Shown here: positions 40,776-59,666 of the stretch, one piece after another | How positions within the stretch are numbered: the first letter of the stretch is position 1 | Layout of the letters: every line of letters begins with the position of its first letter | Assembly: GCA_945910005.1 (NCBI GenBank) | Contig: OX246747.1 | Span: 33,274,293-33,338,292, forward strand | Origin: Isoperla grammatica | Lineage: Eukaryota > Arthropoda > Insecta > Plecoptera > Perlodidae | DNA length: 64,000 bases | Direction: 5' to 3' | The notes under the pieces: generated by a model | The model's input: the letters and a program-made list of their open reading frames with translations, nothing else | Told to the model about the DNA's origin: nothing | Database searches by the model: none | Translations under genes and position numbers: made by a program

Positions 40776-42142
40776 CACATCGAAGCTCTAATATTTCAAT
40801 GTGTAGGAAATTTTCCATCACTACCAAGTACGGGTGCCATAAAACTTGGAATGCAAACGTTCTCTAATTTGATAATTATATAAACCGATTGTTTTATTTA
40901 AACTCATTGTGTTTTTAACAATTTGCTGCATGCACAACACAAATCAATGGTGTTGGTAAATTACTTTCTGTCCTTGGAGAGTTTAATTAAAGCTATTGAC
41001 GTCAATGTCATTGCAATATTTTATGGGATATATAATAAAACAACAATTGGATTGAACGTATATTGCATTCCTCGATACTAATAAAAAGTGTGACAATGAT
41101 TTGATTATGCCTAATTAAATACAAACTAATTAACTAAAGTCATAACATAAATATTATGGCTTTAGGCTGAGAATTGGTATAGAGACCGTTCATATAAATA
41201 CCCCCGGTTAAAACAGTCTAGTTATCACATCTTCCAGACTTCTCCTGCTTTGGAATCATCACCGATCTTCGATCTAAAGTAAGTTCAAGCCTTCATTTAC
41301 AAAGTTCTAATTCAATATGTTTACTGTAGCACATATTACTAACTGTTCCGAAGAGTTTTTTTTTTCAACTTTTTTTCCTCGTTGTATATATATGTATTGT
41401 CTTTTCGAATTGCCAACCTTTATGCTTATGTTTTAATCTTATATATTAAAATGTTTAAAGTTTCCACTTAGGAAATTTTACAAAGAATGTATGTTTATAA
41501 TTTTATAAATAGATGGGAAACATAATTTACTTATACTTTTAATTGTTATACTTATAAAACTTACTTTTTTCTTACTAACTTTTTTTTTATACTTATAATT
41601 TTATAAACGTTTATAAACCTGCTTGTTTATAATTTAATAAATTGTGTTTCTCAAAAAAAAAAAAAAATTACTAAATGTATTTTCACAATACAATTGGTTG
41701 TTAGTGCTTCTTCTTAATTTTAATCGTAATTGAAAACACAATAATACGAAATATTTAATTTTTCGATATTCGATATATGTGGACATGTATGTTCTTCGGT
41801 GACGCTTGCCCTTTGATGTGAGTTGACAACTTTGATAAGAAAATTTCATAGTAGTTTTCGATTAGACACAGTGAAATTCTCATCAATTTAAACGTTGTAT
41901 CGTTTTTCAACAAACTATCAGCTCCACAATTACGATTACAAATAGCTTCAAAATACATTTGGTTACATAATATATTTAATTACTATTCAAGGGTTACAGT
42001 ATCTATTGACAATTGTGCACTGAAACCTCTTAATATTACATAATTATTTTACAAATTAAAACTAATTTATTCATAAAAAATTTTAACAATAAAGTACAAA
42101 ACATCAAATAAGTTCATTCCTCAGAACTTAAAACTTAAACCA
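40776..42142. other. Non-coding, nothing recognised
   Basis: AT-rich DNA without supported exons. Confidence 0.4.
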
Positions 42143-42300
42143 TAAATAAATAAATTCACATTTAGAGTCTACCCACTCAGTAATAAAACTGATTTTCAGT
42201 GGGGGAATTTAATTTAAAGCGACTAAACCAACCCTGCAGGTAGGTTCCGAACACCATCGACGAGTGAGCGATAACCAATGAAAGATCAATATTTCAACCT
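42143..42300 (-). mobile_element. tRNA-derived SINE, tail half (S4)
   Basis: AAATAAATTCACATTTAGAG, CTACCCACTCAGTAATAAAA and 'CACCATCGACGAGTGAGCGA' match the tail half of S2. Confidence 0.7.
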
Positions 42301-42667
42301 TAATTTACCTAACAGCTCCTTACTTGCAGAATTACCTCTAACATTATTTGTAATAACTAATTATTAGTAATTACTAATAAGGTTTCAAGTATTCTTATTA
42401 TTTCTTCGTCTGGTGCACTCAAATAAAATTGCCACGTTTTAAATTTGGTTTGAAATAATGGTTGCTTTTACCCATGTTTTCAAGTCTGCTGGAATATAGT
42501 TACAGATTTTAGTAGAGCCAAGATATTGCACGTGTTTCTATAAAAGTGTTGTTTGGACGGTCGTTTAGCCACGTTGTGGGTAACACTGCTGGTCGTACCA
42601 TTATGACGTGTTCTGTGCGTTCTCCTGTGATTTGCAATTACTTTAAAATAAAATAAATAAAATAAAT
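42301..42667. other. Non-coding, nothing recognised
   Basis: No gene recognised. Confidence 0.4.
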
Positions 42668-42776
42668 AAATAAATTTATTTATTTATTTATTTATTTAAT
42701 GTCTATCTTATTCAGTTATAAAAACGGATTTACAAAGGAGGACCTTATTTACAAAGGAGGACCTTATTTACAAAGG
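42668..42776 (-). mobile_element. SINE/LINE 3' tail fragment, copy 4
   Basis: (TTTA)n, 'TTTAATGTCTATCTTATTCA' and three tandem copies of ACAAAGGAGGACC-type sequence. Confidence 0.6.
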
Positions 42777-42777
42777 A

Positions 42778-42910
42778 GAGAGCCTACCCACACAGTAACG
42801 AAACTGATTTTCAGTGGTGGACTTTAATTTAAAGCGACTAAACTAACCCTGTACATTCCGAACACCATCGACGATTGAGCGATAACCAATCAAAGATCGA
42901 TATTTCAATA
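42778..42910 (-). mobile_element. tRNA-derived SINE, tail half (S5)
   Basis: GAGCCTACCCACACAGTAAC through CCAATCAAAGATCGATATTT, directly abutting the preceding tail fragment. Confidence 0.65.
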
Positions 42911-43289
42911 AAATTATATTACGGTTTCATTACTAGCGTAGCCATATGGCAGCAGTGGAATTGTAAATTTGTCTCAGCATTCAAATACACCTCATTGATA
43001 TATCACCGAGTTTAAAAATTTGCTTCAAAAGTTTCCCTTCTTGGCATTTTTTCCCGTTTCTTTAACGTAACTAGGATGACTTATATAGAAGAATCTCAAA
43101 ATAGCGATGTGTTAAAAGTAAATTAAAGACACATAGTTTCAAACGTCCCGGAAATTTTAATAATAATACTTTCAAGGTTGAACCCAAAAACGCATTCGCT
43201 CAAAACAATGTTTCAAAAAGCATACTATCTTGAATTAGTTGTCAAAAAAAAAAAAAAAAAAATCGAAAATTTCCAGGTTTGTTTAGTGA

Positions 43290-43460
43290 CATTACTTTAG
43301 CCCAATGTCCTTTACAACCCGGATTAAATTACAAAAAAAAGCTGAATTTTTTTAAGGGTCGCTTACAAATGTTATTTTTTTATAAACATACTTCGGGTAC
43401 GCCAAAATCCGCCATGTGTGTTAACCGCCATCTTGGGCTAAAGTTTCTGCTAAGTTTTGC
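43290..43460 (+). repeat. Dispersed repeat, inverted mate at 44680-44860
   Basis: Shares the GGTCGCTTACAAATG and 'TAACCGCCATCTTGG' blocks with the complement of 44680-44860. The plus reading frame through it is not conserved in the mate. Confidence 0.5.
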
Positions 43461-43815
43461 TCTGTCTGCGGGGACGACAGCCACTACACATACAGGAATA
43501 CAATAGCTCGTATCTCAGACATTTTTAAAGTTAACTGAATAATACTTGGCAAGTGGGTTCTAGACACATTAATCTTCATGTTTTATATGAACATATATAA
43601 GAGATTACGATTCCTTTTTAGTGTGTTATTACAAATTTAAATTATTTGTTTGCTTAACCTTTGTGTGTTTTAACAACTTTACACCCTGTTTGCCACTTTC
43701 TATTCTTAGTTAGTACTTAGTCCTTAGTCTAGATTATAAGTTTACTTTTGTACATGGCTACAGAGGGCAATTTGTGCCCTTCATTGGCCTTCCCGCTCTC
43801 GGGCGGGTAAACTTC

Positions 43816-43922
<107 letters not shown>

Positions 43923-44149
43923 GGACTTTATTTGTAAAACAGTGTACATTTTACAAAACGGCGAGGTTCGAGCATGTTGAGGTTCAAGACAATACAGACA
44001 ATACAGACAATACAATAATAGACAATACAATATACTATTCAGTTAGTATGTTTGTCGCTAGTCATGAATATACAATTATCCATGTATACGGTTGATAACT
44101 TTAATGCTTGGTTCTATGTTAATATGATACATAACCACAATCGTGCTAT

Positions 44150-44535
44150 TTATGGTCCCAGGTTCAAATTCCAGATCAGGCAGAAGTTTTTTAACTTCTA
44201 ATAAGGATTCAGTTCCATTACTTCTTGTCTTAGGAATAAGTAAACGGTGACTTTGGGGCCGTCCTAGCAACGAAGCACTCAATAAATTCAAAGTTGTTCT
44301 GAATCGGCCTTGTTGATTCTGGCATTTGTCCGCAGGTGTTCGCACTGTCCAATCACTGATTCAAATGTTTTGTATTAAAAATATTGATCTTTGATTGGTT
44401 ATCGCTCACTCGTCGATGGTGTTCGGAGCCTACAGGGTTGGTTTAGTCGCTTTAAATTAAAGTCCCCCACAGAAAATCAGTTTCGTTACTAAATAGGTAG
44501 ACTCTAAAATATGTGAGTCTATTTATTTATTTGTT
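44150..44535 (+). mobile_element. tRNA-derived SINE, near full length (S6)
   Basis: The head is eroded but keeps a B-box-like GGTTCAAATTCC at about 44161. The body follows in order: neck, 'GTCCTAGCAACGAAGCACTC', TTCGCACTGTCCAATCACTG, 'GGTTGGTTTAGTCGCTTTAA' and the GTAGACTCTAAA tail. Confidence 0.8.
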
Positions 44536-44679
44536 TACTTATGAGTATTGTACATAATAGTACTATTCATTTGACACTATTCATTTTACTTTTCAAGTAA
44601 CTATTCATGTAACTATTAATGTAACTATTCATGATACGGAGGCCTCACAACAAGTGATTAAATGGAAAACTGTAACCGC

Positions 44680-44860
44680 CCACATTTTCCAAGATGGCGG
44701 CTAACGCACAACATGGATTTTCAAAGCGTACCCAAAGTATGTTATATAAAAAAACGACATTTGTAAGCGACCTCAAAAATCGGGTTTTCTCCTCATTTTT
44801 CCGGGGGAAAATCTACAATCACACCACTGTTAAAAATGTGTTTTTAATTCAAACATTTAC
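44680..44860 (-). repeat. Dispersed repeat, mate of 43290-43460
   Basis: AAGATGGCGGCTAACGCACA and CATTTGTAAGCGACC are the complements of the 43290-43460 landmarks. Confidence 0.5.
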
Positions 44861-45142
44861 ATTTGTAGATTATGAACTTGAAAATTGAACATAAGGTACG
44901 AAATGAATTCTGGATTTAGAATGATTCACTAAAGAAGGTTAAGTTCTTAACAAACAAGAAAATAATGAAAGCATATGATTAATAACGATGAAAAAAAAAC
45001 GTGTCAATCAATCACTTTTATATTTAAATATAGTGTAGGGTGCGATTCCAAACTACCATAACACATTGGTTTGGCGCAGTTTAAGTATTGAGACTCAAGG
45101 GTCTCCGGTTAAAATCACAATGTTGTTGTTGTTGCAGCAGCA

Positions 45143-45226
45143 ATGAACGCCCTGTGGCTGTACTCTGTGCTTGCAATGCTGGCGGTTGTCCTCACGGTAA
45201 AGACTGTCGGAGACCCGACGTCGTAG
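45143..45226 (+). CDS. Short leader ORF, copy 1 (27 aa)
   Basis: Leader with Tyr at position 7 in place of Trp, ending ...TVGDPTS then TAG. This is the only copy with GTAAAG where others have GGCAAG, creating a possible canonical splice donor after TCCTCACG. It stands directly before the intact copy at 45294. Whether the short peptide is made is unknown. Confidence 0.4.
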   Translation: MNALWLYSVLAMLAVVLTVKTVGDPTS

Positions 45227-45293
45227 CCTAGGCTATAGCGCTTTGTCCTGTCAACATAGTCATGTTGTTGTTGTTGTTGTTGTTGTTGCAGCA

Positions 45294-45431
45294 ATGAACG
45301 CCCTGTGGCTGTGGTCGGTGCTTGCAATGCTGGCGGTTGTCCTCACGGGCAAGGCTGACGGTCTTCCCCAGGGGAAATACGGTGACATAAACACCAGCAT
45401 AGCAATGTGTGGGAGACCAATCTGTGTATGA
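45294..45431 (+). CDS. Secreted cysteine-pair peptide, copy 2 (45 aa)
   Basis: Unknown family, and I do not recognise a named homologue. Residues 1-17 (MNALWLWSVLAMLAVVL) form a hydrophobic signal peptide core. Cleavage is likely after TGKADG (residues 18-23), leaving about 22 residues that end MCGRPICV. The two Cys, four residues apart, would form a small C-terminal disulfide ring followed by one Val. The start follows a (TTG)n-CAG acceptor-like tract by two bases. AATAAA lies at 45506-45511. The mature peptide is identical to the one at 52889, about 7.6 kb away. Secretion is inferred; the role (defence, signalling, venom or pheromone) cannot be told. Confidence 0.75.
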   Translation: MNALWLWSVLAMLAVVLTGKADGLPQGKYGDINTSIAMCGRPICV

Positions 45432-45505
45432 TAGAATATTGCGTCGAGCCACTTCAAACCTATATAATGGGCTCCTTAGACATTGTGGATTATTTCACAT
45501 TGCCT

Positions 45506-45511
45506 AATAAA
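45506..45511 (+). terminator. Polyadenylation signal of copy 2
   Basis: AATAAA in the conserved CCTAATAAAGTAAC context, 75 bases after the stop. The same hexamer follows the other groups at 46483, 47513, 47951, 50475, 51521, 53101 and 54613. A minus-strand AATAAA lies a few tens of bases beyond, so transcripts could converge. Confidence 0.7.
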
Positions 45512-45522
45512 GTAACATAAAA

Positions 45523-45840
45523 TCAAATGTGAATCATCTTTATTAAATCTTCCCGCCTTACCAGTCCCCCGTCCATAAAACCCTTTACCTGCTGACAAGC
45601 CTTAAGGCGCGTCTCCACCACGTTCGGCACTACCTGAGAAAATGTATAACGACGAGACTTACTCATAGACTCAGGAGCATTAATCATTGCAGCAGCAAAT
45701 AAAATACGCCGTACACCAAGTTTTTGGGTCACCGGAGTCTTCGCAGGGACAGAAACAGTGAAAGTGATCTGATAAGTGTATGATATTGATCTGTTAAATC
45801 TCAAATATCGGTGCATTGATGTCTTTAAAAACTTGTGCAA
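45523..45840 (-). other. Spacer block with open minus-strand frame, copy 1
   Basis: A 105-codon minus frame (FTVSVPAKTPVTQKLGVRR in its middle) lies in the conserved spacer. Other spacers (46510, 48000, 50520, 51597, 53722, 54692) carry the same DNA but with a 13-base deletion or other shifts that break the frame after MSKSRR. Protein conservation is therefore not supported. The block could be an old minus-strand exon, since its end has CAGCAG-GTAAAG like a donor. I list it as conserved DNA, not as a confident gene. Confidence 0.3.
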
Positions 45841-45944
45841 TATTAATTGGATTCAATTGGTCCCAAATCGGTAAACAGGATAGAAACTTCAACTTTAGTA
45901 ACAACTGCAACTGCATATGTGCATGTGCATAATCTATTTGTCAC

Positions 45945-46115
45945 TCAGTCACAATAAAACCCTTACCCTGCTGACAAGCCTTAGACTCACCACCCTTGCA
46001 GCTGGTCGCAGCCTGCCAAGGGCACCTATTTGTCGTGGAAGTTTGGCGAAGTTCAAATATTGAGACTCGAATGTCTCCGGTTAATTTCTCATGTTGTTGT
46101 TGTTGTTGTTGTTGC
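45945..46115 (+). promoter_or_regulatory. Candidate promoter/5' exon block of group 2
   Basis: The order repeats before most groups: CTGCATATGTGCATGTGCAT, a CATAAAACCC-like TATA candidate, CTGCTGACAAGCCTTA, then GACTCACCACCCTTGCAGCT, then the TTG run and CAG. It is the best candidate for the promoter and 5' untranslated exon. Copies stand near 46890-47125, 47578-47740, 48350-48570, 50860-51100, 51940-52170, 54170-54380 and 55010-55210. Confidence 0.4.
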
Positions 46116-46119
46116 AGCA

Positions 46120-46203
46120 ATAAACGCCCTGAGGCTGTGGTCTGTGCTTGCAATGCTGGCGGTTGTCCTCACGGGCAAGGCTGTCGGAGACCCGACGTCG
46201 TAG
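46120..46203 (+). pseudogene. Short leader, copy 3, start codon lost
   Basis: ATA replaces ATG, and the first TGG is AGG. The rest, including ...VGDPTS and TAG, is intact. It stands one unit before the intact copy at 46271. Confidence 0.7.
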
Positions 46204-46270
46204 CCTAGGCTATAGCGCTTTGTCCTGTCAATATAGTCATGTTGTTTTTGTTGTTGTTGTTGTTGCAGCA

Positions 46271-46408
46271 ATGAACGCCCTGTGGCTGTGGTCTGTGCTT
46301 GCAATGCTGGCAGTTGTCCTCATGGGCAAGGCTAACGGTCGCCCCCAGTTATACCCTGGCGAACAAATGAACATAATAATGTGTGGAAAACCAGTGTGTG
46401 TAAAATGA
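46271..46408 (+). CDS. Secreted cysteine-pair peptide, copy 4 (45 aa)
   Basis: The leader is as in copy 2 with two changes (LMGKANG). The mature part is about 22 residues, begins RPQLYPGEQ and ends MCGKPVCVK. The two Cys keep the C-x4-C spacing but the chain ends one Lys later. It lacks the NTS block of copy 2. AATAAA is at 46483-46488. The start is two bases after a TTG-run and CAG. Function is unknown. Conservation of G, basic residue, P and aliphatic inside the ring argues the ring is the working part. Confidence 0.75.
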   Translation: MNALWLWSVLAMLAVVLMGKANGRPQLYPGEQMNIIMCGKPVCVK

Positions 46409-46509
46409 TAGAATATTGCGTCGAGCCACTTCAATCCTATATAATGGGCTCCTTAGACATCGTGGATTATTTCACATGGCCTAATAAAGTAACATAAAAT
46501 CAAACATGA

Positions 46510-46790
46510 ATCCTCTTTATTGTATCTTCCCGCCCTACCAGTCCCTCGACCATAGAACTCTTTACCTGCTGACAAGCCTTAAGGCGCGTCTCCACCGCGT
46601 TCGGAATGTATGACGACGAGACTTACTCATAGACTCAGCAGCATTTATAATTGTTGCAGCAAATAAAACACGCCGTAAACCACGTTTTCGGGTCACCCGA
46701 GTCTTTGCAGGGACAGATACAGTGAAAGTGATCTGATAAATGTCTGATATTGATCCGTTTTATCTTGACTATAGGTGCAATGGGGGTTTT
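46510..46790 (-). other. Spacer block, copy 2 (frame broken)
   Basis: Same DNA as 45523-45840, but 13 bases shorter near GTTCGGAATGTATGACGAC. The minus frame changes after MSKSRR. Confidence 0.5.
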
Positions 46791-47084
46791 ATAAACTTTT
46801 AAGAACGTCAGTTATGATTTTCAATATTTATTGGATTCAATTGGTGTCAAAATCGGTAAACATGATAGAAACTTGAACTTTAGGGAGAACTGCAACTGCA
46901 TATGTGCATGTGTATAATCTCTTTGTCACTCAGTCACCATAAAACCCTTTACCTGCTAACAATTGCCTTAGACTCACCACCCTTGCAGCTGGTCGCAGCC
47001 TGCCAAGGGCTCCTATTTGTCGGGGAAGTTTGGCGCAGTTCAAATATTGAGACTCGAATGTCTCCAGTTACTTTCACATGTTGT

Positions 47085-47128
<44 letters not shown>

Positions 47129-47133
47129 CAGCA

Positions 47134-47217
47134 ATGAACGCCCTGTGGCTGTGGTCTGTGCTTGCAATGCTGGCGGTTGTGCTCACGGGCAAGACTGTCG
47201 GAGACCCGACGTCGTAG
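47134..47217 (+). CDS. Short leader ORF, copy 5 (27 aa)
   Basis: Leader ending ...TVGDPTS then TAG. The TTG run before it is interrupted by one GATG. It precedes copy 6 by 143 bp. Confidence 0.4.
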   Translation: MNALWLWSVLAMLAVVLTGKTVGDPTS

Positions 47218-47276
47218 CCTAGAGCGCTTTGTTCTGTCAATATGGTCAAGTTGTTGTTGTTGTTGTTGTTGCAGCA

Positions 47277-47426
47277 ATGAACGCCCTGTGGCTGTGGTCT
47301 GTGCTTGCAATGCTGGCAGTTGTCCTCACGGACAAGGCTGACGGTCGCCCCCAGGGGGGGAAATACCCACAAATGCCCCCACCGGATCTCACCTATCCAA
47401 TGTGTAGCAAAAAAGAATGTGCTTAA
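47277..47426 (+). CDS. Secreted cysteine-pair peptide, copy 6 (49 aa)
   Basis: Leader with DKADG at the cleavage region, then the most divergent intact mature peptide. It is Gly/Pro-rich (QMPPPDLTYP) and ends MCSKKECA. C-x4-C spacing is kept while the GKP core is replaced by SKKE, giving the ring a different charge. AATAAA lies at 47513-47518. This copy best shows that the tail changes far faster than the leader. Confidence 0.7.
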   Translation: MNALWLWSVLAMLAVVLTDKADGRPQGGKYPQMPPPDLTYPMCSKKECA

Positions 47427-47744
47427 CCTAAAAAATGATAGAATATTGCGTCGAGCAACTTCAGACCTATAAAATGGGCTCCTTAGACATCGTGGATTAT
47501 TTCACATTGCCTAATAAAGTAACATAAAATCAAACGTGAATCCTCTTCTTTTGATCTTCTTTCCCTACCAGTTCCTCGACCATAAAACCCTTTACCTGCT
47601 GACAAGCCTTAGACTCACCACCCTTGCAGCTGGTCGCAGACTGCCAAGGGCTCCTATTTGTCGCAGAAGTTTGGCGCAGTTCAAATATTGAGACTCAAAT
47701 GTCTCCGGTTAATTTAACATGTTGTTGTTATTGTTGTTGCAGCA

Positions 47745-47876
47745 ATGAACGCCCTGTGGCTGTGGTCTGTGCTTGCAATGCTGGCAGTTGTCCTCACGGG
47801 CAAGGCTGACGGTCTCCCCCAGGGAGGGAAATACCCTGACCTGCAGCAAATCCACGAAGCAAAACCTGGAAAATGA
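47745..47876 (+). pseudogene. Peptide copy 7, cysteine ring deleted (43 aa)
   Basis: The open frame runs from leader through LPQGGKYPDLQQ, then HEAKPGK and TGA. The block coding for the Cys ring (present just before the KPGK-like end in the 50327 tail) is missing, with the frame kept. It has no short leader copy in front. It may be a dead gene or a linear peptide. AATAAA is at 47951-47956. Confidence 0.6.
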
Positions 47877-47999
47877 TAGAATATTGCGTCGAGCTACTTT
47901 AAACCTATATAATGGGCTCCTTAGACATTGTGGATTTTTTCACATTGCCTAATAAAGTAACATAAAATCAAATGTGAATCATCTTTATTTAATCTTCCC

Positions 48000-48270
48000 G
48001 CCCTACCGGTCCCTCGTCCATAAAACCCTTAACCTGCTGACCAGCCTTAAGGCGCGTCTCCACCACGTTCGGCACTACCTGAGAAAATGTATAACGACGA
48101 GACTTACTCAGACTCAGGAGCATTAATAATTGCAGCAGCAAATAGAACACGCCGTACACCACGTTTTTGGGTCACCCGAGTCTTCGCAGGGACAGAAACA
48201 GTGAAAGTTATGAAATAAATGTCTGATATTGATCTGTTAAGTCTCAAATATCGGTGCATTGGTGTCTTTA
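48000..48270 (-). other. Spacer block, copy 3
   Basis: Matches 45523-45840 with scattered differences. A TCATAG deletion near 48111 and other changes break the minus frame. Confidence 0.45.
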
Positions 48271-48538
48271 TAAACTTTTGCAATATTTATTGGATTCAAT
48301 TGGTCCCAAAATCGGTAGACAGGATAGAAACTTCGACTTTAGGAAGAACTGCAACTGCATATGTGCATGTGAATAATCTCTTTGTCACTCAGTCACCATA
48401 AAACCCTTTACCTGCCGACAAGCCTTAGACTCACCACCCTTGCAGCTGGTCGCAGCCTGCCAAGGGCTCCTATTTGTCGCGGAAGTTTGGCGCAGTGCAA
48501 ATATTGAGACTCGAATGTCTCCGGTTAATTTAACATAA

Positions 48539-48572
<34 letters not shown>

Positions 48573-48578
48573 GCAGCA

Positions 48579-48662
48579 ATGAACGCCCTGTGGCTGTGGT
48601 CTGTGCTTGCAATGCTGGCAGTTGTCCTCACGGGCAAGGCTGTCGGAGACCCGACGTCGTAG
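48579..48662 (+). CDS. Short leader ORF, copy 8
   Basis: Behind the long TTG run of this group (about 11 units). Ends ...AVGDPTS then TAG. Confidence 0.4.
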   Translation: MNALWLWSVLAMLAVVLTGKAVGDPTS

Positions 48663-48718
48663 CCTAGAGCGGTTTGTCCTGTCAATATAGTCATGTTGTT
48701 GTTGTTGTTGTTGCAGCA

Positions 48719-48802
48719 ATGAACGCCCTGTGGCTGTGGTCTGTGCTTGCAATGCTGGCGGTTGTTCTAACGGGCAAGGCTGACGGAGACCCGACGTCGT
48801 AG
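48719..48802 (+). CDS. Short leader ORF, copy 9
   Basis: 140 bp after copy 8. Ends ...ADGDPTS then TAG. Confidence 0.4.
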   Translation: MNALWLWSVLAMLAVVLTGKADGDPTS

Positions 48803-48861
48803 CCAAGAGCGCTTTGTCCTGTTAATATAGTCATGTTGTTGTTGTTGTTGTTGTTGCAGCA

Positions 48862-48945
48862 ATGAACGCCCTGTGGCTGTGGTCTGTGCTTGCAATGCTG
48901 GCGGTTGTCCTAACGGGCAAGGCTGACGGAGACCCGACGTCGTAG
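48862..48945 (+). CDS. Short leader ORF, copy 10
   Basis: 143 bp after copy 9, with the same ADGDPTS end. Copies 9 and 10 share a CTAACGG variant, a sign of local duplication. Confidence 0.4.
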   Translation: MNALWLWSVLAMLAVVLTGKADGDPTS

Positions 48946-49077
48946 CCTAGAGTGCTTTGTCCTGTCAATATAGTCATGTTGTTGTTGTTGTTGCAGCAAT
49001 GAACGCCCTGTGGCTGTGGTCTGTGCTTGCAATGCTGGCGGTTGTCCTCACGGGCAAGGCTGACGGTCGCCCCCAGG

Positions 49078-49593
49078 GGCCTGATTCCTGTACATTTTTT
49101 TAACTCTTCTTAACTCTCGCTAACCCCATGTTAAAATGACCCCGGGGCTAACTCCTACACAGGCTTTCCTGCATAATTCGGAGGCAAATATGACCCTGTC
49201 TGATAGTAGGGTTAAGAAGAGTTATCTCAACAATACTCTGAAATGCCGCCATTTTGTCAATGCCCGTGTGTATAGTTTCACAAATGTCACATTTCAATTC
49301 TTTATTGAGGATATCCTATTTCATGGATACGTTACTTTATGTGTTTGTTGAAGTTTATAAACAATTTCGTGTATTTACAGTACATTATATAGCTCATATA
49401 TATGTCAATATGTAGTTTTATTTAGTATTTTGTCAACATTTTGAGGTTATTGGACTGTTTTTGTTTGTTATTGTTTTGATTTTGTCTCGTTTTTACAACA
49501 ATGCCTTCGTTCGACCGGCGTCCCAGTTGCTGACTCCTGATTGGCTATTGGCTAACACCGGGGTTAAGTTTTCAAATGTACTGGAATGAGGCC
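49078..49593. mobile_element. MITE in peptide copy 11, first element
   Basis: Inverted ends GGCCTGATTCCTGTACATTT and the complement of GGCCTCATTCCAGTACATTT. Flanked by CCAGG at 49073-49077 and 49594-49598. Internal sequence related to 28790-29130. No transposase. Confidence 0.85.
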
Positions 49594-49598
49594 CCAGG

Positions 49599-50321
49599 AC
49601 CCTTATTCTGTAAAATGTTCTCGTTCTCGTGTGAAACGAAAACGAAATCTGCACCCGTTCCGAGGCTAGAAGGTACCAGCAAATAGTATTTCTCCATTGT
49701 AGTCACGTTTACGGTCACAGCTGACTATAATTATCAGAATGCAGAACGAAATCAGCCGCCAATTATGAATATGAAATTCTGGCACAGATTTTAGTCACAT
49801 GGCCAACTGCTTGCGACAATAGTAGTCCCCGTGGAGCTACCGAGACCTCCTATCTTCTAAATCATGGCCGACCGAGTTCCGCCATCAACTTAATGCTAAG
49901 GTGTAGTTTTATCTCTATTTGACAACACTTTGACATATATCTTTACTTACCACCTTGTACTATACTATTGAACTAATTATTGTAATTTAACCATGGCATA
50001 TATCCATTTATTTACTTAGATTGTTGAATTTACATGTTATGTCGTTTGATTGGCATTTCGAGTCTTTATTGTGTCAAAAATAACAAGTGGCAGTTGTTAT
50101 GGACTTGATACCGCAGCCTACTGCATGTTTTAACAGATTTAGTGGGCAGTGACCGTTGACACCACATACACATGACTTCGAACAGTGCTATTCCAATGTC
50201 TTTGGACTGCAACCGAGAAATACCATTGGCTGCTACCATCCTAGCCTCCAAACAATACCAAATCGAGATTTCGTTTAGTTCTCGTTTCGTTTCACACGAG
50301 AACATTTTACAGAATAAGGGC
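49599..50321. mobile_element. MITE in peptide copy 11, second element
   Basis: Starts ACCCTTATTCTGTAAAATG and ends with its complement (one terminal mismatch), followed inside by inverted GTTCTCGT and GAAACGAAAACGAAAT blocks. It uses the adjoining CCAGG (49594-49598) and a further CCAGG at 50322-50326 as flanks. Non-coding. Confidence 0.85.
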
Positions 50322-50519
50322 CCAGGGGGGAATATACGGTAACCCACAAGACAGCTGTGCAATGTGTGGGAAACCGATATGTCTTAAACCTGGAAAATGA
50401 TAGAATATTGCGTCGAGCCACTTCAAACCTATATAATGGGCTCCTTAGACATCGTGGATTATTTCACATGGCCTAATAAAGTAACAAAATAAATTTGAAT
50501 CCTCTTTAATTGATCTACC

Positions 50520-50800
50520 CGCCCTACCAGTCCCTCGACCATAAACCCCTTTACCTGCTGACAAGCCTTAAGGCGCGTCTCCACCGCGTTCGAAATGTAT
50601 GACGACGAGACTTCCTCATAGACTCAGGAGCATTAATAATTGTTGCAGCAAATAAAACATGCCGTACACCAAGTTTTTGGGTCACCCTTGTGTCCGACAG
50701 GACAAATACAGTGCGAGTGATCTAATAAATGTCTGATATTGATCTGTTAAATCTCCAATATCGGTGCATTGGTGTCTTTATAAACTTTTGCAATATTTAT
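50520..50800 (-). other. Spacer block, copy 4
   Basis: Same conserved spacer DNA, with the shortened GTTCGAAATGTATGACGAC junction and a changed CTTGTGTCCGACAGG patch. Minus frame broken. Confidence 0.45.
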
Positions 50801-51054
50801 TGGATTCAATTGGTCCCAAAATCGGTAAACAGGATTGAAACTTCAACTTTAGGAAGAACTGCAACTGCATATGTGCATGTGCATAATCTCTTTGCCATTC
50901 AGTAACCATTAAACCCTTTACCTGCTGACTAACCTAAGACTCACCACCCTTGCAGCTAGTCGCAGTCTGCCAAGGAGGGAGCTGCCTCCTATTTGTCGCG
51001 GAAGTTTGGCGCAGTTCAAATATTGAGACTCGAATGTCCCCGGTGAATTTCTCA

Positions 51055-51090
<36 letters not shown>

Positions 51091-51103
51091 GGTTGTTGCA
51101 GCA

Positions 51104-51187
51104 ATGAACGCCCTGTGGCTGTGGTCTGTGCTTGCAATGCTGGCAGCTGTCCTCACGGACAAGACTGTCGGAGACCCGACGTCGCAG
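51104..51187 (+). pseudogene. Short leader, copy 12, stop codon lost
   Basis: TAG after GDPTS is CAG here, so the frame would read through the next TTG run as poly-Leu and stop at the TGA that overlaps the next leader's start. Otherwise a normal leader (LAAVLTDKTV variant). Confidence 0.6.
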
Positions 51188-51246
51188 CCTAGAGCGCTTT
51201 GTCCTGTCAATATATTCATGTTGTTGTTGTTGTTGTTGTTGCAGCA

Positions 51247-51390
51247 ATGAACGCCCTGTGGCTGTGGTCTGTGCTTGCAATGCTGGCGGTTGTCCTCACG
51301 AGCAAGGCTGACGGTCTCCCCCAGGGGGGGAAAAACCCTGGCGGCCTTGGCACGCACTATCCAACCCCTATACCCTGGGAAGTACGCTGA
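51247..51390 (+). pseudogene. Peptide copy 13, frameshifted before the cysteines
   Basis: The leader has TSKADG, then a Gly/Pro-rich tail of 48 codons in total that ends in WEVR and TGA. The DNA for MCGKPVCL follows at about 51405-51436 in another reading frame. A tail rearrangement joined an extra GGLGTHY stretch to the LYPGKY-type tail out of frame. AATAAA is at 51521. Confidence 0.6.
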
Positions 51391-51596
51391 CCTAAACACC
51401 AGCTTAGCAATGTGTGGGAAACCAGTATGTCTTTAACCCGGAAAATGATAGAATATTGAGTCGAGCCACTTCAAACCTATAATGGGCTCCTTAGACATCG
51501 TGGATTATTTCACATTGCCTAATAAAGTAACAAAATAAATTTGAATCCTCTTTAATTGATCTACCCGCCCTACCAGTCCCTCGACCATAAAACCCT

Positions 51597-51839
51597 TTAC
51601 CTACTGACAAGCTTTAAGGCGCGTCTCCACCGCGTACGGAATATATGACGACGAGACTTACTCATAGACTCAGCAACATTTATAATTGTTGCAGCAAATA
51701 AAACACGCCGTAAACCACATTTTTGGGTCACCCGAGTCTTCGCAGGGACAGATACAGTGAAAGTGATCTGATAAATGTCTGATATTGATCTGTTAAATCT
51801 CAAATATCGGTACATTGATGTCTTTATAAACTTTTGCAA
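51597..51839 (-). other. Spacer block, copy 5
   Basis: Minus frame FTVSVPAKTRVTQKCGLRR is open for 80 codons but ends in a shifted RTRWRRAL-type tail rather than the tail of copy 1. Confidence 0.4.
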
Positions 51840-51909
51840 TATTTATTGGATTCAATTGGTCCCAAAATCGGTAGACAGGATAGAAACTTCAACTTTAGGA
51901 AGAACTGCA

Positions 51910-51970
51910 ACTGCATAATATGCAAAGAGATTATGCACATGCACATATTATGTGCATGTGCATAATCTCT
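51910..51970. repeat. Expanded TGCATAAT palindrome before group 7
   Basis: The conserved GCATATGTGCATGTGCATAA element is here replaced by a longer inverted repeat (AGAGATTATGCACATGCACA and its complement). This is a local hairpin formed by duplication of the candidate regulatory element. Confidence 0.6.
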
Positions 51971-52176
51971 TTGCCATTCAGTAACCATTAAACCCTTTAC
52001 CTGCTGACTAACCTAAGACTCACCACCCTTGCAGCTAGTCGCAGTCTGCCAAGGAGGGAGCTGCCTCCTATTTGTCGCGGAAGTTTGGCGCAGTTCAAAT
52101 ATTGAGACTCGAATGTCCCCGGTGAATTTCTCATGTTGTTGTTGTTGTTGTTGTTGTTGTTGTGGTTGTTGCAGCA

Positions 52177-52260
52177 ATGAACGCCCTGTGGCTGTGGTCT
52201 GTGCTTGCAATGCTGGCAGCTGTCCTCACGGACAAGACTGTCGGAGACCCGACGTCGTAG
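52177..52260 (+). CDS. Short leader ORF, copy 14
   Basis: First of five short leaders in the largest group. Its upstream block is nearly identical to that of copy 12, including a GGAGGGAGCTGCC insertion, showing that groups 6 and 7 share a recent duplication. Confidence 0.4.
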   Translation: MNALWLWSVLAMLAAVLTDKTVGDPTS

Positions 52261-52316
52261 CCTTGAGCGCTTTGTCCTGTCCTTATAGTCATGTTGTTGT
52301 TGTTGTTGTTGCAGCA

Positions 52317-52397
52317 ATGAACGCCCTGTGGCTGTCTGTGCTTGCAATGCTGGCAGTTGTCCTCACGGGCAAGACTGTCGGAGACCCGACGTCGTAG
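52317..52397 (+). CDS. Short leader ORF, copy 15 (26 aa)
   Basis: One Trp codon is deleted (MNALWLSVLAML). Ends ...TVGDPTS then TAG. Confidence 0.4.
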   Translation: MNALWLSVLAMLAVVLTGKTVGDPTS

Positions 52398-52453
52398 CCT
52401 AGAGCGCTATGTCCTGTCAATATAGTCATGTTGTTGTTGTTGTTGTTGCAGCA

Positions 52454-52537
52454 ATGAACGCCCTGTGGCTGTGGTCTGTGCTTGCAATGCTGGCGGTTGT
52501 CCTCACGGGCAAGGCTGCCGGAGACTCGACGTCGTAG
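52454..52537 (+). CDS. Short leader ORF, copy 16
   Basis: Ends ...AAGDSTS then TAG, a variant of the GDPTS end. Confidence 0.4.
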   Translation: MNALWLWSVLAMLAVVLTGKAAGDSTS

Positions 52538-52605
52538 CCTAGAGCGCTTTGTCCTGGCAATATAGTCATGTTGTTGTTGTTGTTGTTGTTATTGTTGTTG
52601 CAGCA

Positions 52606-52689
52606 ATGAACGCCCTGTGGCTGTGGTCTGTGCTTGCAATGCTGGCGGTTGTCCTCACGGGCAAGGCTGACGGAGACCCGACGTCGTAG
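52606..52689 (+). CDS. Short leader ORF, copy 17
   Basis: 152 bp after copy 16, the longest spacing, because of a longer TTG run that includes one ATT. Ends ADGDPTS. Confidence 0.4.
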   Translation: MNALWLWSVLAMLAVVLTGKADGDPTS

Positions 52690-52742
52690 CCTAGAGCGCT
52701 TTGTCCTGTCAATATAGTCATGTTGTTGTTGTTGTTGCAGCA

Positions 52743-52826
52743 ATGAACGCCCTGTGGCTGTGGTCTGTGCTTGCAATGCTGGCAGTTGTCCTCACGGGCA
52801 AGGCTGTCGGAGACCCGACGTCGTAG
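52743..52826 (+). CDS. Short leader ORF, copy 18
   Basis: 137 bp after copy 17. Ends AVGDPTS then TAG. Immediately precedes the full copy 19. Confidence 0.4.
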   Translation: MNALWLWSVLAMLAVVLTGKAVGDPTS

Positions 52827-52888
52827 CCTAGAGCGCTTTGTCCTGTTAATATAGTCATGTTGTTGTTGTTGTTGTTGTTGTTGCAGCA

Positions 52889-53026
52889 ATGAACGCCCTG
52901 TGGCTGTGGTCTGTGCTTGCAATGCTGGCGGTTGTCCTCACGGGCAAGGCTGACGGTCTTCCCCAGGGGAAATACGGTGACATAAACACCAGCATAGCAA
53001 TGTGTGGGAGACCAATTTGTGTATGA
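52889..53026 (+). CDS. Secreted cysteine-pair peptide, copy 19 (45 aa)
   Basis: Encodes the same 45 residues as copy 2 at 45294: signal peptide, TGKADG cleavage region, and a mature peptide with NTS (a potential N-glycosylation sequon) and the MCGRPICV end. Silent differences, such as TTTGT for TCTGT, show it is not an assembly copy of the same locus. It ends a group with five short leaders, the most in the array. AATAAA is at 53101-53106. Identity at two distant sites suggests gene conversion or segmental duplication. Function unknown. Confidence 0.75.
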   Translation: MNALWLWSVLAMLAVVLTGKADGLPQGKYGDINTSIAMCGRPICV

Positions 53027-53409
53027 TAGAATATTGCGTCGAGCCACTTCAAACCTATATAATGGGCTCCTTAGACATTGTGGATTATTTCACATTGCCT
53101 AATAAAGTAACATAAAATCAAATGTGAATCATCTTTAATAAATATTCCCGCCCTACCGGTCCCTCGTCCATAAAACCCTTTACCTGCTGACAAGCCTTAA
53201 GGCGCGTCTCCACCGCGTTCGGCACTACCTGAGAAAATGTATAACGACGAGACTTAAGCCGGCTACAGACTATTCGCCATTCGTCGTACGCATTCGTCGA
53301 ACCTTCAGCAGGTAGCGGTTCGTGGCCGATTCGCGAACCGCCCGGGTAGCCCTACACACTGTGCGTGTTTCAGTTGGAAGGCAGATGTTACTTCGTGAGT
53401 CCGTTGGTC

Positions 53410-53604
53410 ATGAGTGATGAGAGTGATGATGATATTGCAGTTGCGAGTGTTGCAACAGATTCAAATATTTTTGTTTATCTCCTCCTGTGTACACTCAAAC
53501 TTAACACTTATCTTTTTCAAACAATCGTTCCTTTTGTTTCTTCTCTTTCTATCTTAATCTTTTGGGTCCCACAAACAACGGAACTCTTTTATTTCTTCAA
53601 TTAA
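53410..53604 (+). pseudogene. Harbinger-type first ORF remnant
   Basis: Begins MSDESDDDIAVASVA, an acidic start of the kind seen in Harbinger-encoded proteins, then loses sense (FVYLLLCTLK...) and stops at 53604. The DDE catalytic part is absent. Family assignment rests on the element's TIR and TTA duplication more than on these residues. Confidence 0.45.
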
Positions 53605-53640
53605 AGCAAGCATACGCTCATCCTTCCACTCGGACTCCAT
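53554..53640 (-). pseudogene. MADF-domain protein remnant
   Basis: MESEWKDERMLALIEEIKE followed by FRCLWDPKD and a stop. The Leu-Ile-Glu...Leu-Trp-Asp pattern is the start of a MADF (Myb/SANT-like) DNA-binding domain, which Harbinger elements carry as a second gene. Only the first helix is left. Overlaps the plus-strand remnant because the middle of the element is deleted. Confidence 0.6.
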
Positions 53641-53917
53641 GACTGCAGGTGGCTTGTTTGATGAGCAATGCCCGTTTTGACATTTCAAACCCTTTGTTGT
53701 AGGCTGGCGCCGAGGGTGAAACTAGGCGCGTGACCAGGTAGCGATTCGTGTACTTTGATAAATACCGCTTCTAGAGCGAACCACCATGTATCGCGAATCG
53801 CGCACGGGTTTCGACGAATGACCCCCTACACACTTCACGAATTGGCCACGAACCGCTACCTGCTGAAGGTTCGACGAATGCGTACGACGAATGGCGAATA
53901 GTCTGTAGCCGGCTTTA

Positions 53918-54096
53918 CTCATAGACTCAGGAGCATTAATAATTGCAGCAGCAAATAAAACACGCCGTACACCAAGTTTTTGGGTCACCCGAGTCGTCGC
54001 AGGGACAGATACAGTAAAAGTGATCTGATAAATGTCTGATATTGATCTGTTAAATCTCCAATATCGGTGCATTGGTGTCTTTATAAACTTTTGCAA
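53918..54096 (-). other. Spacer block, copy 6, right part
   Basis: Continuation of the conserved spacer interrupted by the Harbinger element. The left part is 53130-53256. Confidence 0.5.
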
Positions 54097-54382
54097 TATT
54101 TATTGGATTCAATTGGTCCCAAAATTGGTAAACAGGATTAAAACTTCAACTTTAGGAAGAACTGCAACTGCATATGTGCATGTGTATAATCTCTTTGTCA
54201 CTTGGTCACCTCAAAACCCTTTACCTGCTAACAAGCCTTTGACTCACCACCCTTACAGCTGGTCGCAGCCTGCCAAGGGCTCCTATTTGTCGCGGAACTT
54301 TGGCGCAGTTCAAATATTGAGACTCGAATGTCTCCGGTTAATTTAACATGTTGTTGTTGTTGTTGTTGTTGTTGTTGCAGCA

Positions 54383-54526
54383 ATGAACGCCCTGTGGCTG
54401 TGGTCTGTGCTTGCAATGCTGGCGGTTGTCCTCACGGGCAAGACTGACGGTCGCCCCCTATACCCTGGGAAGTACCCTGACCTAAACACCAGCGTAGCAA
54501 TGTGTGGGAAACCAATATGTCTTTAA
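54383..54526 (+). CDS. Secreted cysteine-pair peptide, copy 20 (47 aa)
   Basis: The leader (TGKTDG) is followed by a mature part of about 24 residues: RPLYPGKYPDL, then NTSVAMCGKPICL and TAA. It has the NTS sequon of copies 2 and 19 and the GKP ring of copy 4, so it reads like a mosaic of the two tail types. No short leader precedes it; the upstream block leads straight into this copy. AATAAA is at 54613-54618. Function unknown, secretion inferred from the signal peptide. Confidence 0.75.
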   Translation: MNALWLWSVLAMLAVVLTGKTDGRPLYPGKYPDLNTSVAMCGKPICL

Positions 54527-54691
54527 CCTGGAAAATGATATAATATTGCGTCGAGCCACTTCAAACCTATATAATGGGCTCCTTAGACATCGTGGATTAT
54601 TTCACATGGCCTAATAAAGTAACATAAAATCAAACGTGAATCCTCTTTATTGTATCTTCCCGCCCTACCAGTCCCTCGTCCATAAAACCCT

Positions 54692-54934
54692 TTACCTGCT
54701 GACAAGCCTTAAGGCGCGTCTCCACCGCGTTCGGAATGTATGACGACGAGACTTACTCATAGACTCAGCAGCATTTATTATTGTTTCAGCAAATAAAACA
54801 AGCCGTAAACCACGTTTTTGAGTCACCCGAGTCTTCGCAGGGACAGATACAGTGAAAGTTATCTGATAAATGTCTGATATTGATCTGTTAAGTCTCAAAT
54901 ATCGGTGCATTGTTGTCTTTATAAACTTTTGCAA
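54692..54934 (-). other. Spacer block, copy 7
   Basis: 80-codon minus frame of the shifted type (FTVSVPAKTRVTQKRGLRL). Same DNA family as 45523-45840. Confidence 0.4.
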
Positions 54935-55211
54935 TATTTATTGGATTCAATTGGTCCCAGAATCGGTAAACAGAATAGAAACTTCAAATTAAGGAAGAAC
55001 TGCACTTGCATATGTGCATGTGCATAATCTCTTTGTCACTCAGTCACCATAAAACCCTTTACCTGCTGACCAGCCTTAGACTCACCACCCTTGCAGCTAG
55101 TCGCAACCTGCCAAGGGCTCCTATTTGTCGCAGAAGTTTGGCGCAGTTCAAATATTGAGACTCGAATGTCTCCGGTTAATTTAACATGTTGTTGTTATTG
55201 TTGTTGCAGCA

Positions 55212-55289
55212 ATGAACGCCCTGTGGCTGTGGTCTGTGCTTGCAATGCTGGCAGTTGTCCTCACGGCCCTCATGAAAAATAACCATTGA
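55212..55289 (+). pseudogene. Peptide copy 21, truncated at array end
   Basis: A normal leader to ...VVLT, then the sequence passes into an unrelated CCATTG-rich repeat and stops as ALMKNNH. The right part of the gene, its AATAAA and spacer are absent, so this marks the broken right border of the array. Confidence 0.8.
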
Positions 55290-55740
55290 TTTTCAAATAA
55301 AAAACCATTGATTTCTAACCAATGGTGAAATTGGACAAACCATTGGATAAAAACCATTAGCTTAAAATAAAAACCATTAGCTTAAACCATTGAATAATTT
55401 ACCATTAAATACAAAAACCTTTGAATGAAACCATTGATTTTCAAATAAAAAAACCATTGGCTTAGACCATTGAATAATTTACCATTGAATACAAAAACCA
55501 TTGAAAGAAAACCATTGGTTTTCAAATAAAAAACCATTGGCTTAGACCATTAAATAATTTACCATTGAATACAAAAACCATTGAATGAAAACCATTGGAC
55601 AAAATTACCATTGAATAAAAAACCATTGAACAAATTACCATTAACAAAATTACCATTGAATAAAAAAACCATTGAATATAAAAACCATTGAACAAATTAC
55701 CATTAAGGAAATTACCATTGAATAAAAAACCATATAATTT
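55265..55740. repeat. Degenerate ACCATTG repeat
   Basis: More than twenty ACCATTGA/ACCATTGG motifs are separated by A-rich pieces (AATAAAAA, CAAATT, ATACAAAA). Larger units such as TTAGACCATT-AATAATTTACCATTGAATAC recur. No gene. The minus-strand frame rich in SMV/NGF is a by-product. Confidence 0.85.
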
Positions 55741-55880
55741 AAATGACATTGTACAAATTAAATTACGAAATATGGATACCAAGTGCAATAAAAGTTTGCC
55801 CTGACTGGTATTCGAACCCAGATCGCCGGCTCTACGTACCAGTGCCTTATCCATTGAGGCTACTAGGGCGGCTGAGACAA
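55741..55880 (-). mobile_element. SINE with tRNA-Arg-like head
   Basis: On the minus strand about 55870-55800 folds like a tRNA: acceptor GCCCTAG with TCAGGGC, D-arm GCCTCAATGGATAAGGC (the Arg-type D-arm), anticodon arm CTGGT-ACGTAGA-GCCGG, T-arm CTGGGTTCGAATACCAG. The anticodon loop has C at position 33 instead of T and would read GTA, so it is probably a SINE head or pseudo-tRNA rather than a working gene. Confidence 0.55.
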
Positions 55881-57415: not shown

Positions 57416-58285
57416 TCATTTCCAAGTTATGAAAAATAATATTTGGCAATACTTCCACGATAGGACTTTTGCGGAATTAGCGCCGTCAACCCATTGAAAA
57501 AGGAACCACCGAACCACACCTAAAAGGACATTGTGCATGTAGTCTGGGACGAAAGAAGTTATGATATTGAAAATGGGAAGTAATAATAGTAAAGAAGGAC
57601 CTTTTACGCCATTCGAACTTTCAAGATCATGGTCAATTACTCGATCAATGTCTCTTAAGTGCTGGTCTTCACTCCGTGGCTCCCCAACCTCACCACGGTA
57701 GACACGAGATATTCCGTTTCCCCTTTCAATGCACTCACCGGGTGCCAAACAGAATGAGCATCCATGTTTACCATTATACTGTTTTATATTTTGCAAGAGA
57801 GGCCGGGCAACAGAATCTACGGTTCCTATTACGCAATGAACTTTAATGATCCTTCCATCATCAAGGACTATGCCAGTTGTATGCAGTTCTTGAAGTTCGT
57901 CTACAAATGGGCGAAGAAAAGTGTTCATTTGCGGTTTCGTTCCTTGCCACAGTCCAGTCAACAATATGTTTTCTTTTCTTTCTTGGTAAGAGAGCTCATT
58001 TATGGCTACTTGTATTGGCCAAATGCTACACTTTGAAGATTTGGCAGCAGATGCTCCGTCGGTGTTCCATTGTAATGTAATGTCGATAGGGCCAATTTTA
58101 CCACTTTCAACATGTTGTTTATAAATCTCCCCTGATGTCACACCACTTGCATGGTTGTCTTTACTCAATTTAGAAAAAAAGTCGGGATTGTTTAACAGCT
58201 TTGCTAGTTGATCTCTGAGAGGCAAATGTAAAAAGAAACATTTATTTTTTCGAAGTTGATCGAAGTATTGATCAAGACCAAACAA
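57416..58285 (-). pseudogene. EnSpm/CACTA-type transposase, partial (Transposase_21-like)
   Basis: The open frame covers the central part of the transposases grouped as Transposase_21 / EnSpm-CACTA in animals and plants, which cut and move DNA. Landmarks by codon of the frame: WNTDG at 73-77 with the presumed first catalytic Asp at 76, SIWP at 87-90, a second candidate Asp at 157 (GTVDS), a CSFC Cys pair at 176-179, GVKGPS at 226-231 and PDYMHNVLLGV at 247-257. The frame opens at TTG after a TGA, so the N-terminal part is missing or in another exon. The end (FFITWK) does not look like the family, and a PYRG-like motif appears in a neighbouring frame just before it, suggesting a frameshift. 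Full family members are usually well over twice this length. Confidence 0.8.
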
Positions 58286-58329
58286 ATCGCATCATCTCAC
58301 CACCGCGCTACATTCAATTCAAAAAGCCC

Positions 58330-58600
58330 CCCCAAATACGCGAGCCATGCAGGCCGGCACTCGTGGCTAGGGAGAACAGATGCAGCCGGCCGAGCGAGAG
58401 AGAAAACAATGGAGTGCTATCATGTCTGAGCGAGACGCGACGAAGTACGGCCACCTTGAGCGACCGATGTCAGCAGCTGCCGCCTGCCGTGAGAGAGAGA
58501 GAGAGAGAGAAAGCGCTAGTCACAAGACGCTTGAGTGCGAATAATCGTATCGATCATCAAACAGCAACCCTACTCAAAACTCCCGTACTGTGTGCGATAA
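58330..58600. promoter_or_regulatory. CpG-rich stretch upstream of the transposase ORF
   Basis: CG-rich DNA with a (GA)n run at 58490-58511, lying just beyond the 5' end of the minus-strand transposase frame. Could be its leader or promoter, or a separate insert. Weak evidence. Confidence 0.25.
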
Positions 58601-58740
58601 CATGGCCTAATTGCCAATTGGTAGTAACACATAGTACCGTAATTTAACATATTGTATGTAAACTAGCAAGGGCATAGGCCTACGTTAGTTCGAAACAATT
58701 GACATCTAGACAAATACCGTACTAGAATAATACAGGAAAC

Positions 58741-59079
58741 CATGGGCCCGCATGGCTATACACAAAGATGTAACGAATGTGGCAGATTAATTTCATAAAA
58801 CTAAACACAAGCTTGACTGGCACGTCAACAGCGAGTCTATAGGTGGCATTAAATAGCATACACGTCATGGACATCTTGCGGTAGTCATGGAAACGCAAGT
58901 GAGGTTATGGTATTCATTTACCTACAATTTATATTGTGGTACATTTTAAATGATTTTATCAAATTAAAACTTAAATAATAATCAAAATACAAAATAGTTC
59001 AGTTAATGCTTGATTAAAATAGTGTACTTTATAAGGCTAAGAAAATAAAAATGCGGCCATGTTGAAAGCAGCGAGTGGA
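58741..59079. other. Non-coding, nothing recognised
   Basis: No exon found between the BEN gene's 3' region and the transposase frame. Confidence 0.4.
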
Positions 59080-59510: not shown

Positions 59511-59666
59511 TGAGTGGCCTTGTTCACAAAGTTCCAAGCCAACCCAGCCAACCCACCTGGCCAACTGTCGTCAGAAATTCACGCAAGCTTCCTGTATTAC
59601 TCTAGTACGATATTTGGAGTGGCGTCCCTACTTTAGCTAGGCCTCGACAATTCAGACTTCTTCATC

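Follow-up and report, generated by a model that had tools for sequence, protein, structure and literature searches.

The 64,000-nucleotide stretch of stonefly DNA analysed here (the window; C15:33274293-33338292, chromosome 9 of the 874 Mb Isoperla grammatica genome) contains a tandem array in which one leader is repeated 21 times, and the same leader stands in front of unrelated sequences on other chromosomes. As judged from the genome sequence, it is fairly probable that these loci are genes for secreted (pre)propeptides, in which a promoter and a noncoding exon 1 would be spliced to terminal exons made of a leader and a tail. A role of the peptides in defence is the least certain part of this reading.

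The genome was scanned by a protein search of its own sequence, in which 150 of 519 and 150 of 527 candidates were scored, and five loci (L058-L062) were read together with the last listed leader of 20 further arrays. Among the listed matches the leader is present on ten chromosomes (1, X1, 4, 5, 6, 7, 8, 9, 10 and 12, which are contigs C1, C2, C8, C9, C12, C13, C14, C15, C16 and C20) and on one unplaced scaffold (C332). Twenty-three tailed leaders from separate places were compared, the last leader with no more than five mismatches being taken at each locus and L072 and L082, apparent copies of L063 and L064, being left out. A leader core of 41 nucleotides is exact in 19 of the 23; mean pairwise identity is 0.98-1.00 at nucleotides 1-30, amounts to 0.92 when 12 fourfold sites are taken, and drops to 0.27-0.34 at nucleotide 81 and beyond. 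Because the loci were picked by similarity of the leader protein, the conservation of amino acids is partly ascertained, the identity at silent sites less so. The sequence behind the leader is unrelated between loci on different chromosomes. The constant leader with a diversified tail, proposed in a sequence-only reading of the window, is supported by these loci on many chromosomes.

Among the 20 further loci, five tails carry C-x4-C (CWLPPC twice, CIEPPC, CHYPLC and CANPPC), two carry C-x5-C, two C-x6-C (L066 and L077), and 11 have no cysteine pair. The tails of L058, L059 and L062 are also of the C-x4-C kind, whereas what was seen at L060 and L061 is units of leader without tail. The tails without a cysteine pair include the proline-rich peptides VPTFPPYFPPHRK and AQNPRTTTSRPNTPPPFNSWGG and repeats punctuated by RR, in L079 (SADAPEDIRG-RR) and L069 (EVPSGGQGRD-RR); the leader and repeats of L079 (C15:2193500-2193960) lie in an open frame of 315 codons, which seems to contain a second match, to the CYERHC family (C-x4-C). 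The C-terminal ends of tails include CIKGR, CGKGG and SWGG. On C13 and C16 there are rows of 142-151 bp units that consist of an acceptor, the leader and a pro-like segment APDAIAERAxRSVPS. The pro-segment AIAERARRS is present in L066 and L077, and RR follows the pro-like segment in L062, L066 and L077 and nowhere in the window array.

The window array and its closest relatives

All 21 leader copies of the window lie on the + strand, from 45143 to about 55265, and a tblastn count also gives 21. A 96-nucleotide leader query matches these 21 places over 64-99 nucleotides at 90-100% identity, which is far beyond chance. Twenty copies align without gaps, and copy 21, at 52317, lacks three bases. 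The 5' flank, the leader, the 3' untranslated region (3'UTR) and AATAAA are repeated together in each unit; seven other units carry an 86-nucleotide 5' flank at 91-95% identity, and the first unit carries it at 85%. The near-identity of leaders and flanks noted in the sequence-only reading is therefore confirmed. The 21 copies do not amount to 21 peptide genes, since 13 have no tail: the array is composed of eight tailed copies, 12 leader-only copies of the B type (45143, 46120, 47134, 48579, 48719, 48862, 51104, 52177, 52317, 52454, 52606 and 52743) and one truncated copy. Of the tailed copies, five are intact and three are damaged (Table 1); C-x4-C is present in all five intact ones, as had been claimed. 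The second cysteine, said to stand at or one residue from the end, is one residue from it in four copies and two residues from it in the copy at 46271 (...CVK). The tails do differ, as that reading held, but within the array they are recognisably related, and the change is complete only between loci.

Chromosome 9 also carries a second array (C15:33212365-33227853) with 33 leaders, of which 14 are tailed, and 10 of these 14 are intact with C-x4-C. Its flank blocks are 85-95% identical to those of the window and the arrays themselves are up to 96.7% identical. A single copy at 119.95 Mb on chromosome 1 (hereafter the C1 copy) encodes ...RPQYTTPSEENMGNPYGCQNPWCIKGR, and roughly 3 kb of the DNA upstream of it matches both arrays in a gapped alignment.

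In these two arrays the leaders that carry a tail are protected, and the leader-only copies decay. No start is lost in 22 tailed leaders and no amino-acid change occurs in their codons 1-17, whereas 27 leader-only copies show four lost starts, one stop and 14 distinct nonsynonymous changes (codons 1-20); three unclassified leaders were set aside in this comparison, and two with a 3-nucleotide deletion were not scanned. The sequence-only reading had named a leader spread through the genome without tails as evidence against itself; leader-only units do abound, but in the loci that were read they lie beside tailed copies. To our knowledge, arrays of leaders without tails occur in no other peptide family with a conserved leader.

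The tail also outpaces the spacer DNA in change, by some means, and positive selection is not proven. In eight intact copies (seven from the arrays and the C1 copy, 28 pairs) the leaders are 0.91-0.99 identical, the 3'UTRs 0.91-0.98 and the tails 0.40-0.87; in the array copies alone the corresponding values are 93-99%, 92-98% and 52-87%. Spacers, taken as a yardstick, are 0.88-0.92 identical in eight of nine pairs tested; the remaining pair, at 0.54, lacks homology in that part. The comparison of substitutions that the sequence-only reading had proposed gives, in seven array copies, a ratio of nonsynonymous to synonymous change (dN/dS) of 0.22 in leaders and 0.79 in tails.

Proposed anatomy of the genes

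The leader would encode a signal peptide, MNALWLWSVLAMLAVVLTGKADG in the window array and MNALWLWSVLAMLAVFLMGEAAG elsewhere, often followed by a short pro-segment. The tail would be the mature peptide, 22-26 residues long in the window array if cleavage occurs after ADG, and one predicted disulfide would close a C-terminal C-x4-C loop in these peptides. Transcription is expected to begin at a TATA promoter, from which a short noncoding exon 1 would be spliced to the T-rich CAG acceptor directly ahead of a leader; leader, tail, stop and a poly(A) signal would together make up the terminal exon. In the window array one promoter may serve a whole row of terminal exons, in which case the peptide produced would depend on the acceptor and the poly(A) site that are used. 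The leader-only units would be tandem copies of acceptor and leader, under little constraint themselves, that help to keep the leaders uniform through unequal exchange or gene conversion.

The locus was previously placed at 45050..55290, and the only promoter-like start found lies outside that span, near 41.2 kb (Table 1). The TATA box and the donor are conserved in the second array, and the C1 copy keeps the donor and has the TATA box deleted; with a weight matrix the donors score 10.0, 10.0 and 9.1 bits in the window, the second array and the C1 copy. Window positions 41190-41272 align over 86 columns, at 83.7% identity, with a stretch of L090 on chromosome 8, which has a TATA box and the donor AAG/GTGAGT and whose array ends in a proline-rich tail (L075). 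The order TATA, short stretch, donor is found at four loci, namely the window, L090 (C14 27.16 Mb), L083 (C14 1.70 Mb) and L060 (C13 9.15 Mb). In the two arrays and the C1 copy, each of the 55 leaders is preceded by CAG, which nearly always follows a T-rich (TTG)n tract.

In most window copies (45143-55215) the sequence ATG(TTG)nCAGCAA TGA can be read as a small frame, M-L(n)-QQ, with a stop codon that overlaps the start codon of the leader; 53 of the 55 leaders have such a frame ahead of them. If the leader acceptor is used, this small frame is removed. Very long (TTG)n tracts stand ahead of the leaders of L090 (C14) and L086 (C9), and a GAGAC...GTCTC hairpin is present inside the 5' flank of some copies. 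A GC-AG intron inside the leader was considered and is not needed, as the frame runs through. The window leader-only copies carry a linker that by eye seems related to the pro-like segment of C13 and C16; they had been taken for fusions of leader and 5' flank until the C13 and C16 units showed a leader with a pro-like linker.

Table 1. Features of the window array and its putative promoter region (window coordinates)
Feature	Position	Strand	Basis or remark
TATA box TATAAAT, sole promoter-like start found at the locus	41193..41199	+	alignment with second array
Putative noncoding exon 1	41224..41278	+	start approximate (TATA +31 to +34); ends in AAA/GTAAGT donor
Putative intron of 3.9 kb, donor to first CAG acceptor	41279..45140	+	inferred
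First leader-only copy (B type)	45143..45226	+	alignment of leader copies
Intact tailed copy, peptide MNALWLWSVLAMLAVVLTGKADG-LPQGKYGDINTSIAMCGRPICV	45294..45431	+	read in sequence
AATAAA polyadenylation signal of first tailed copy	45506..45511	+	recurs after other aligned tailed copies
Dispersed repeat in most unit spacers	45610..45951	not assigned	copies on many chromosomes
Intact tailed copy, tail RPQLYPGEQMNIIMCGKPVCVK	46271..46408	+	leader alignment
Intact tailed copy, tail RPQGGKYPQMPPPDLTYPMCSKKECA	47277..47426	+	leader alignment
Tailed copy, cysteine segment lost	47745..47876	+	alignment
Tailed copy cut by insertion	48999..49087	+	alignment; second array arranged alike
Insertion with inverted repeats at both ends	about 49088-50320		interrupts copy 48999
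Tailed copy, frameshift ahead of cysteines	51247..51390	+	alignment
Intact tailed copy, peptide identical to 45294	52889..53026	+	leader alignment
Inverted-repeat element, TTA at both ends	53255-53915		interrupts array
Intact tailed copy, tail RPLYPGKYPDLNTSVAMCGKPICL	54383..54526	+	leader alignment
Final leader, truncated; array ends	55212..55266	+	

The dispersed repeat of the spacers is missing from the unit that ends near 47660 and from the C1 copy; it is a transposon-like passenger outside the peptide gene. A minus-strand gene with duplicated spacer exons was ruled out, as this stretch is a dispersed repeat on many chromosomes, and two of its frames gave no Pfam match. The element at 53255-53915 is presumably a Harbinger-type miniature inverted-repeat transposable element. 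Elsewhere in the window there is an assembly gap, a run of exactly 200 N (9012-9211), a tandem array of about nine copies of a 195-bp unit (25528-27423) and, on the - strand, a transposon-like gene set in fragments (57416-62878), with a DUF1258/Transposase_21-like frame that scores below the Pfam cut-offs and a BEN domain (E-value 3.8e-10). A tRNA-like match on the - strand (55797-55869), possibly a short interspersed nuclear element, is barely over the Rfam gathering score.

Alternative explanations and the question of function

Several observations weigh against secreted peptides made from a shared first exon, and some of them concern the tails. The cysteine pair is absent from more than half of the further tails (11 of 20), the tails of L063/L072, L073 and L080 look decayed, and in L067 the C-x4-C tail (CIEPPC) stands behind a leader that has lost its start. 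The proportion of synonymous differences (pS) is 0.36 in the tail and 0.10 in the leader (seven array copies), so that positive selection need not be the cause of the fast change in tails. The predicted mature peptides have a net charge of +1 to +2 in the window and of +1 to +3 in a set of nine, which is little for peptides that act on membranes. Other observations concern the promoter. At the upstream ends of 13 other arrays, TATA and donor occur in order at only three (L060, L083 and L090); five ends begin inside the leader array, and five lack this arrangement within about 450 nucleotides. The same pattern arose by chance four times in total in 10 simulated sequences of 220 kb (about 0.4 per strand); the real 220 kb contains it twice on the + strand, at the two array loci, and once on the - strand. 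It was not found in 30 kb around the C1 copy, where the TATA box is missing. No NF-kB site is established; an NF-kB-like word seen upstream was uncontrolled and was not used.

If the leader were a selfish tandem repeat that carries a signal-peptide frame by chance, with tails that are mostly chance frames, the rows of 142-151 bp leader-only units, the hundreds of genome-wide candidates and a leader DNA more uniform than the protein needs would be accounted for. We regard this as quite improbable, because tailed leaders in the two arrays keep the frame and start that leader-only ones lose, C-x4-C recurs across different tails, AATAAA follows the array tails, and L079 lies in its long open frame, apparently beside a second C-x4-C match. 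It is doubtful as well, though less so, that the copies are separate genes with no common exon 1, each with a short promoter in the conserved 5' flank. The repetition of that flank from unit to unit, with its hairpin in some copies, agrees with separate promoters, and on C16 the sequence after one tail looks like the beginning of the C13 promoter stretch, so that at other loci each gene may have a promoter of its own. Separate promoters are harder to reconcile with the absence of TATA[AT]A[AT] within 200 nucleotides upstream of any of the 52 leaders scanned (of 54 in the two arrays), and with the lack of a TATA-initiator pattern or strong donor pattern in the interior of both arrays; unspliced transcripts would, moreover, carry the small frame ending on the leader ATG before 53 of 55 leaders. 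The copy number beyond the window could be inflated by an assembly error, the window and second arrays being two haplotypes. The 200-N gap precedes the window contig and homology to the second array starts about 240 nucleotides past it, and the genome note (874.58 Mb, 14 chromosomes and a mitochondrion of 16.16 kb) gives 68.59% as the primary k-mer completeness and states that 47 haplotypic duplications were removed (PMC13033136). We consider such an error rather unlikely and a real duplication more likely, as no match of at least 900 nucleotides between window and second array extends beyond the array ends and the identity of flank blocks varies over the range given above; the 21 copies inside the window are unaffected either way.

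With respect to function, the peptides of the proposed secreted-peptide genes may be host-defence effectors whose tails diversify under defence pressure. On the one hand, the turnover of tails, the copy number and the mixture of single-disulfide, proline-rich and repeat peptides resemble defence peptides of insects and frogs, and by this analogy a defence role is probable. On the other hand, a reproductive or signalling role fits as well: the products could be peptide hormones, pheromones or seminal peptides, with the RR repeats and the GK, GR or GG ends processed by prohormone convertases and amidated, which the repeats of L079 and L069, the pro-segment of L066 and L077 and the ends CIKGR, CGKGG and SWGG would suit. 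A hormone whose receptor is fixed would be expected to keep its sequence from one copy to its neighbour, and 13-48% of aligned sites differ between array tails; signalling in place of defence is possible rather than probable, although this objection would not touch reproductive peptides.

A further proposal, which we put forward only tentatively, is that the (TTG)n-bounded units of acceptor and leader are a recombining secretory cassette, multiplied in tandem and homogenised genome-wide, and that in arrays like that of the window one promoter feeds many complete alternative terminal exons. Such a module would give any new tail a splice site, a start codon and a signal peptide, and one gene would yield a set of different secreted peptides, depending on the acceptor and poly(A) site used. 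Provided that the genes are expressed, they represent a large repertoire of insect peptides for which no described relative was found, and an unusually clear case of a signal-peptide exon that stays constant at the DNA level while its product is replaced. This constancy makes the origin of the mature regions testable by comparison of stonefly genomes, with gene conversion, tail capture and accelerated substitution as candidate routes.

Comparison with known peptide families

The earlier statement that no homologue is recognised holds in the databases searched. Protein searches with one peptide and with an eight-peptide alignment found no relative, and Pfam (with eight members scanned) and PDB sequences gave no convincing one; below the cut-off, Pfam matches were DUF4576 in three of the eight (best E-value 0.03), RDM3_C (E-value 0.004) and two weaker ones. 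No published description of the family was found in literature searches that did not query the peptide itself, and a search for antimicrobial peptides of the stonefly order gave only unrelated work. Sea-urchin sperm-activating peptides were dropped as possible relatives because the source is a stonefly: the COX1 on its mitochondrial contig (C603, 16163 bp) is 100% identical, over 98% of its length, to that of Isoperla grammatica.

A conserved signal and a fast-changing mature region characterise the conotoxin superfamilies. Conotoxins are cysteine-rich venom peptides of cone snails, whereas the stonefly peptides would have at most one disulfide. The frog-skin precursors of Ranidae and Hylidae have a conserved signal, a pro-segment and a hypervariable mature part in multigene families (PMC6245896), and here too the signal region is far more conserved than the mature region. 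The likeness is one of organisation, and there are differences: the host is an insect, the leader is uniform at the DNA level, leader-only units stand in tandem, and the pro-segment is often absent or different.

Thanatin of the bugs Riptortus and Podisus also has one disulfide near the C-terminus, with 38 precursors reported in one insect (PMC8767025). It is 21 residues long (PMC11395501). Its Cys11-Cys18 bond closes a six-residue loop, in contrast to the four residues found in all five intact window copies, and the Riptortus precursors have 125-148 residues; the C-x6-C tails of L066 and L077 have no Pfam match. The Bomanins of Drosophila are likewise short, secreted, clustered and lineage-restricted (PMC4411088), but their 16-residue motif with CXXC is not present in the stonefly peptides: no CXXC occurs in eight aligned peptides, and none of eight members matches a Pfam family at cut-off. 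The Myticalins and CRP-I of mussels are described as multigenic and variable peptide families as well (PMC5577615, PMC10138031), but they come from molluscs. A constant leader with a changing peptide is thus a known organisation, and what is unusual in the stonefly is the arrays of leaders and the probable alternative terminal exons.

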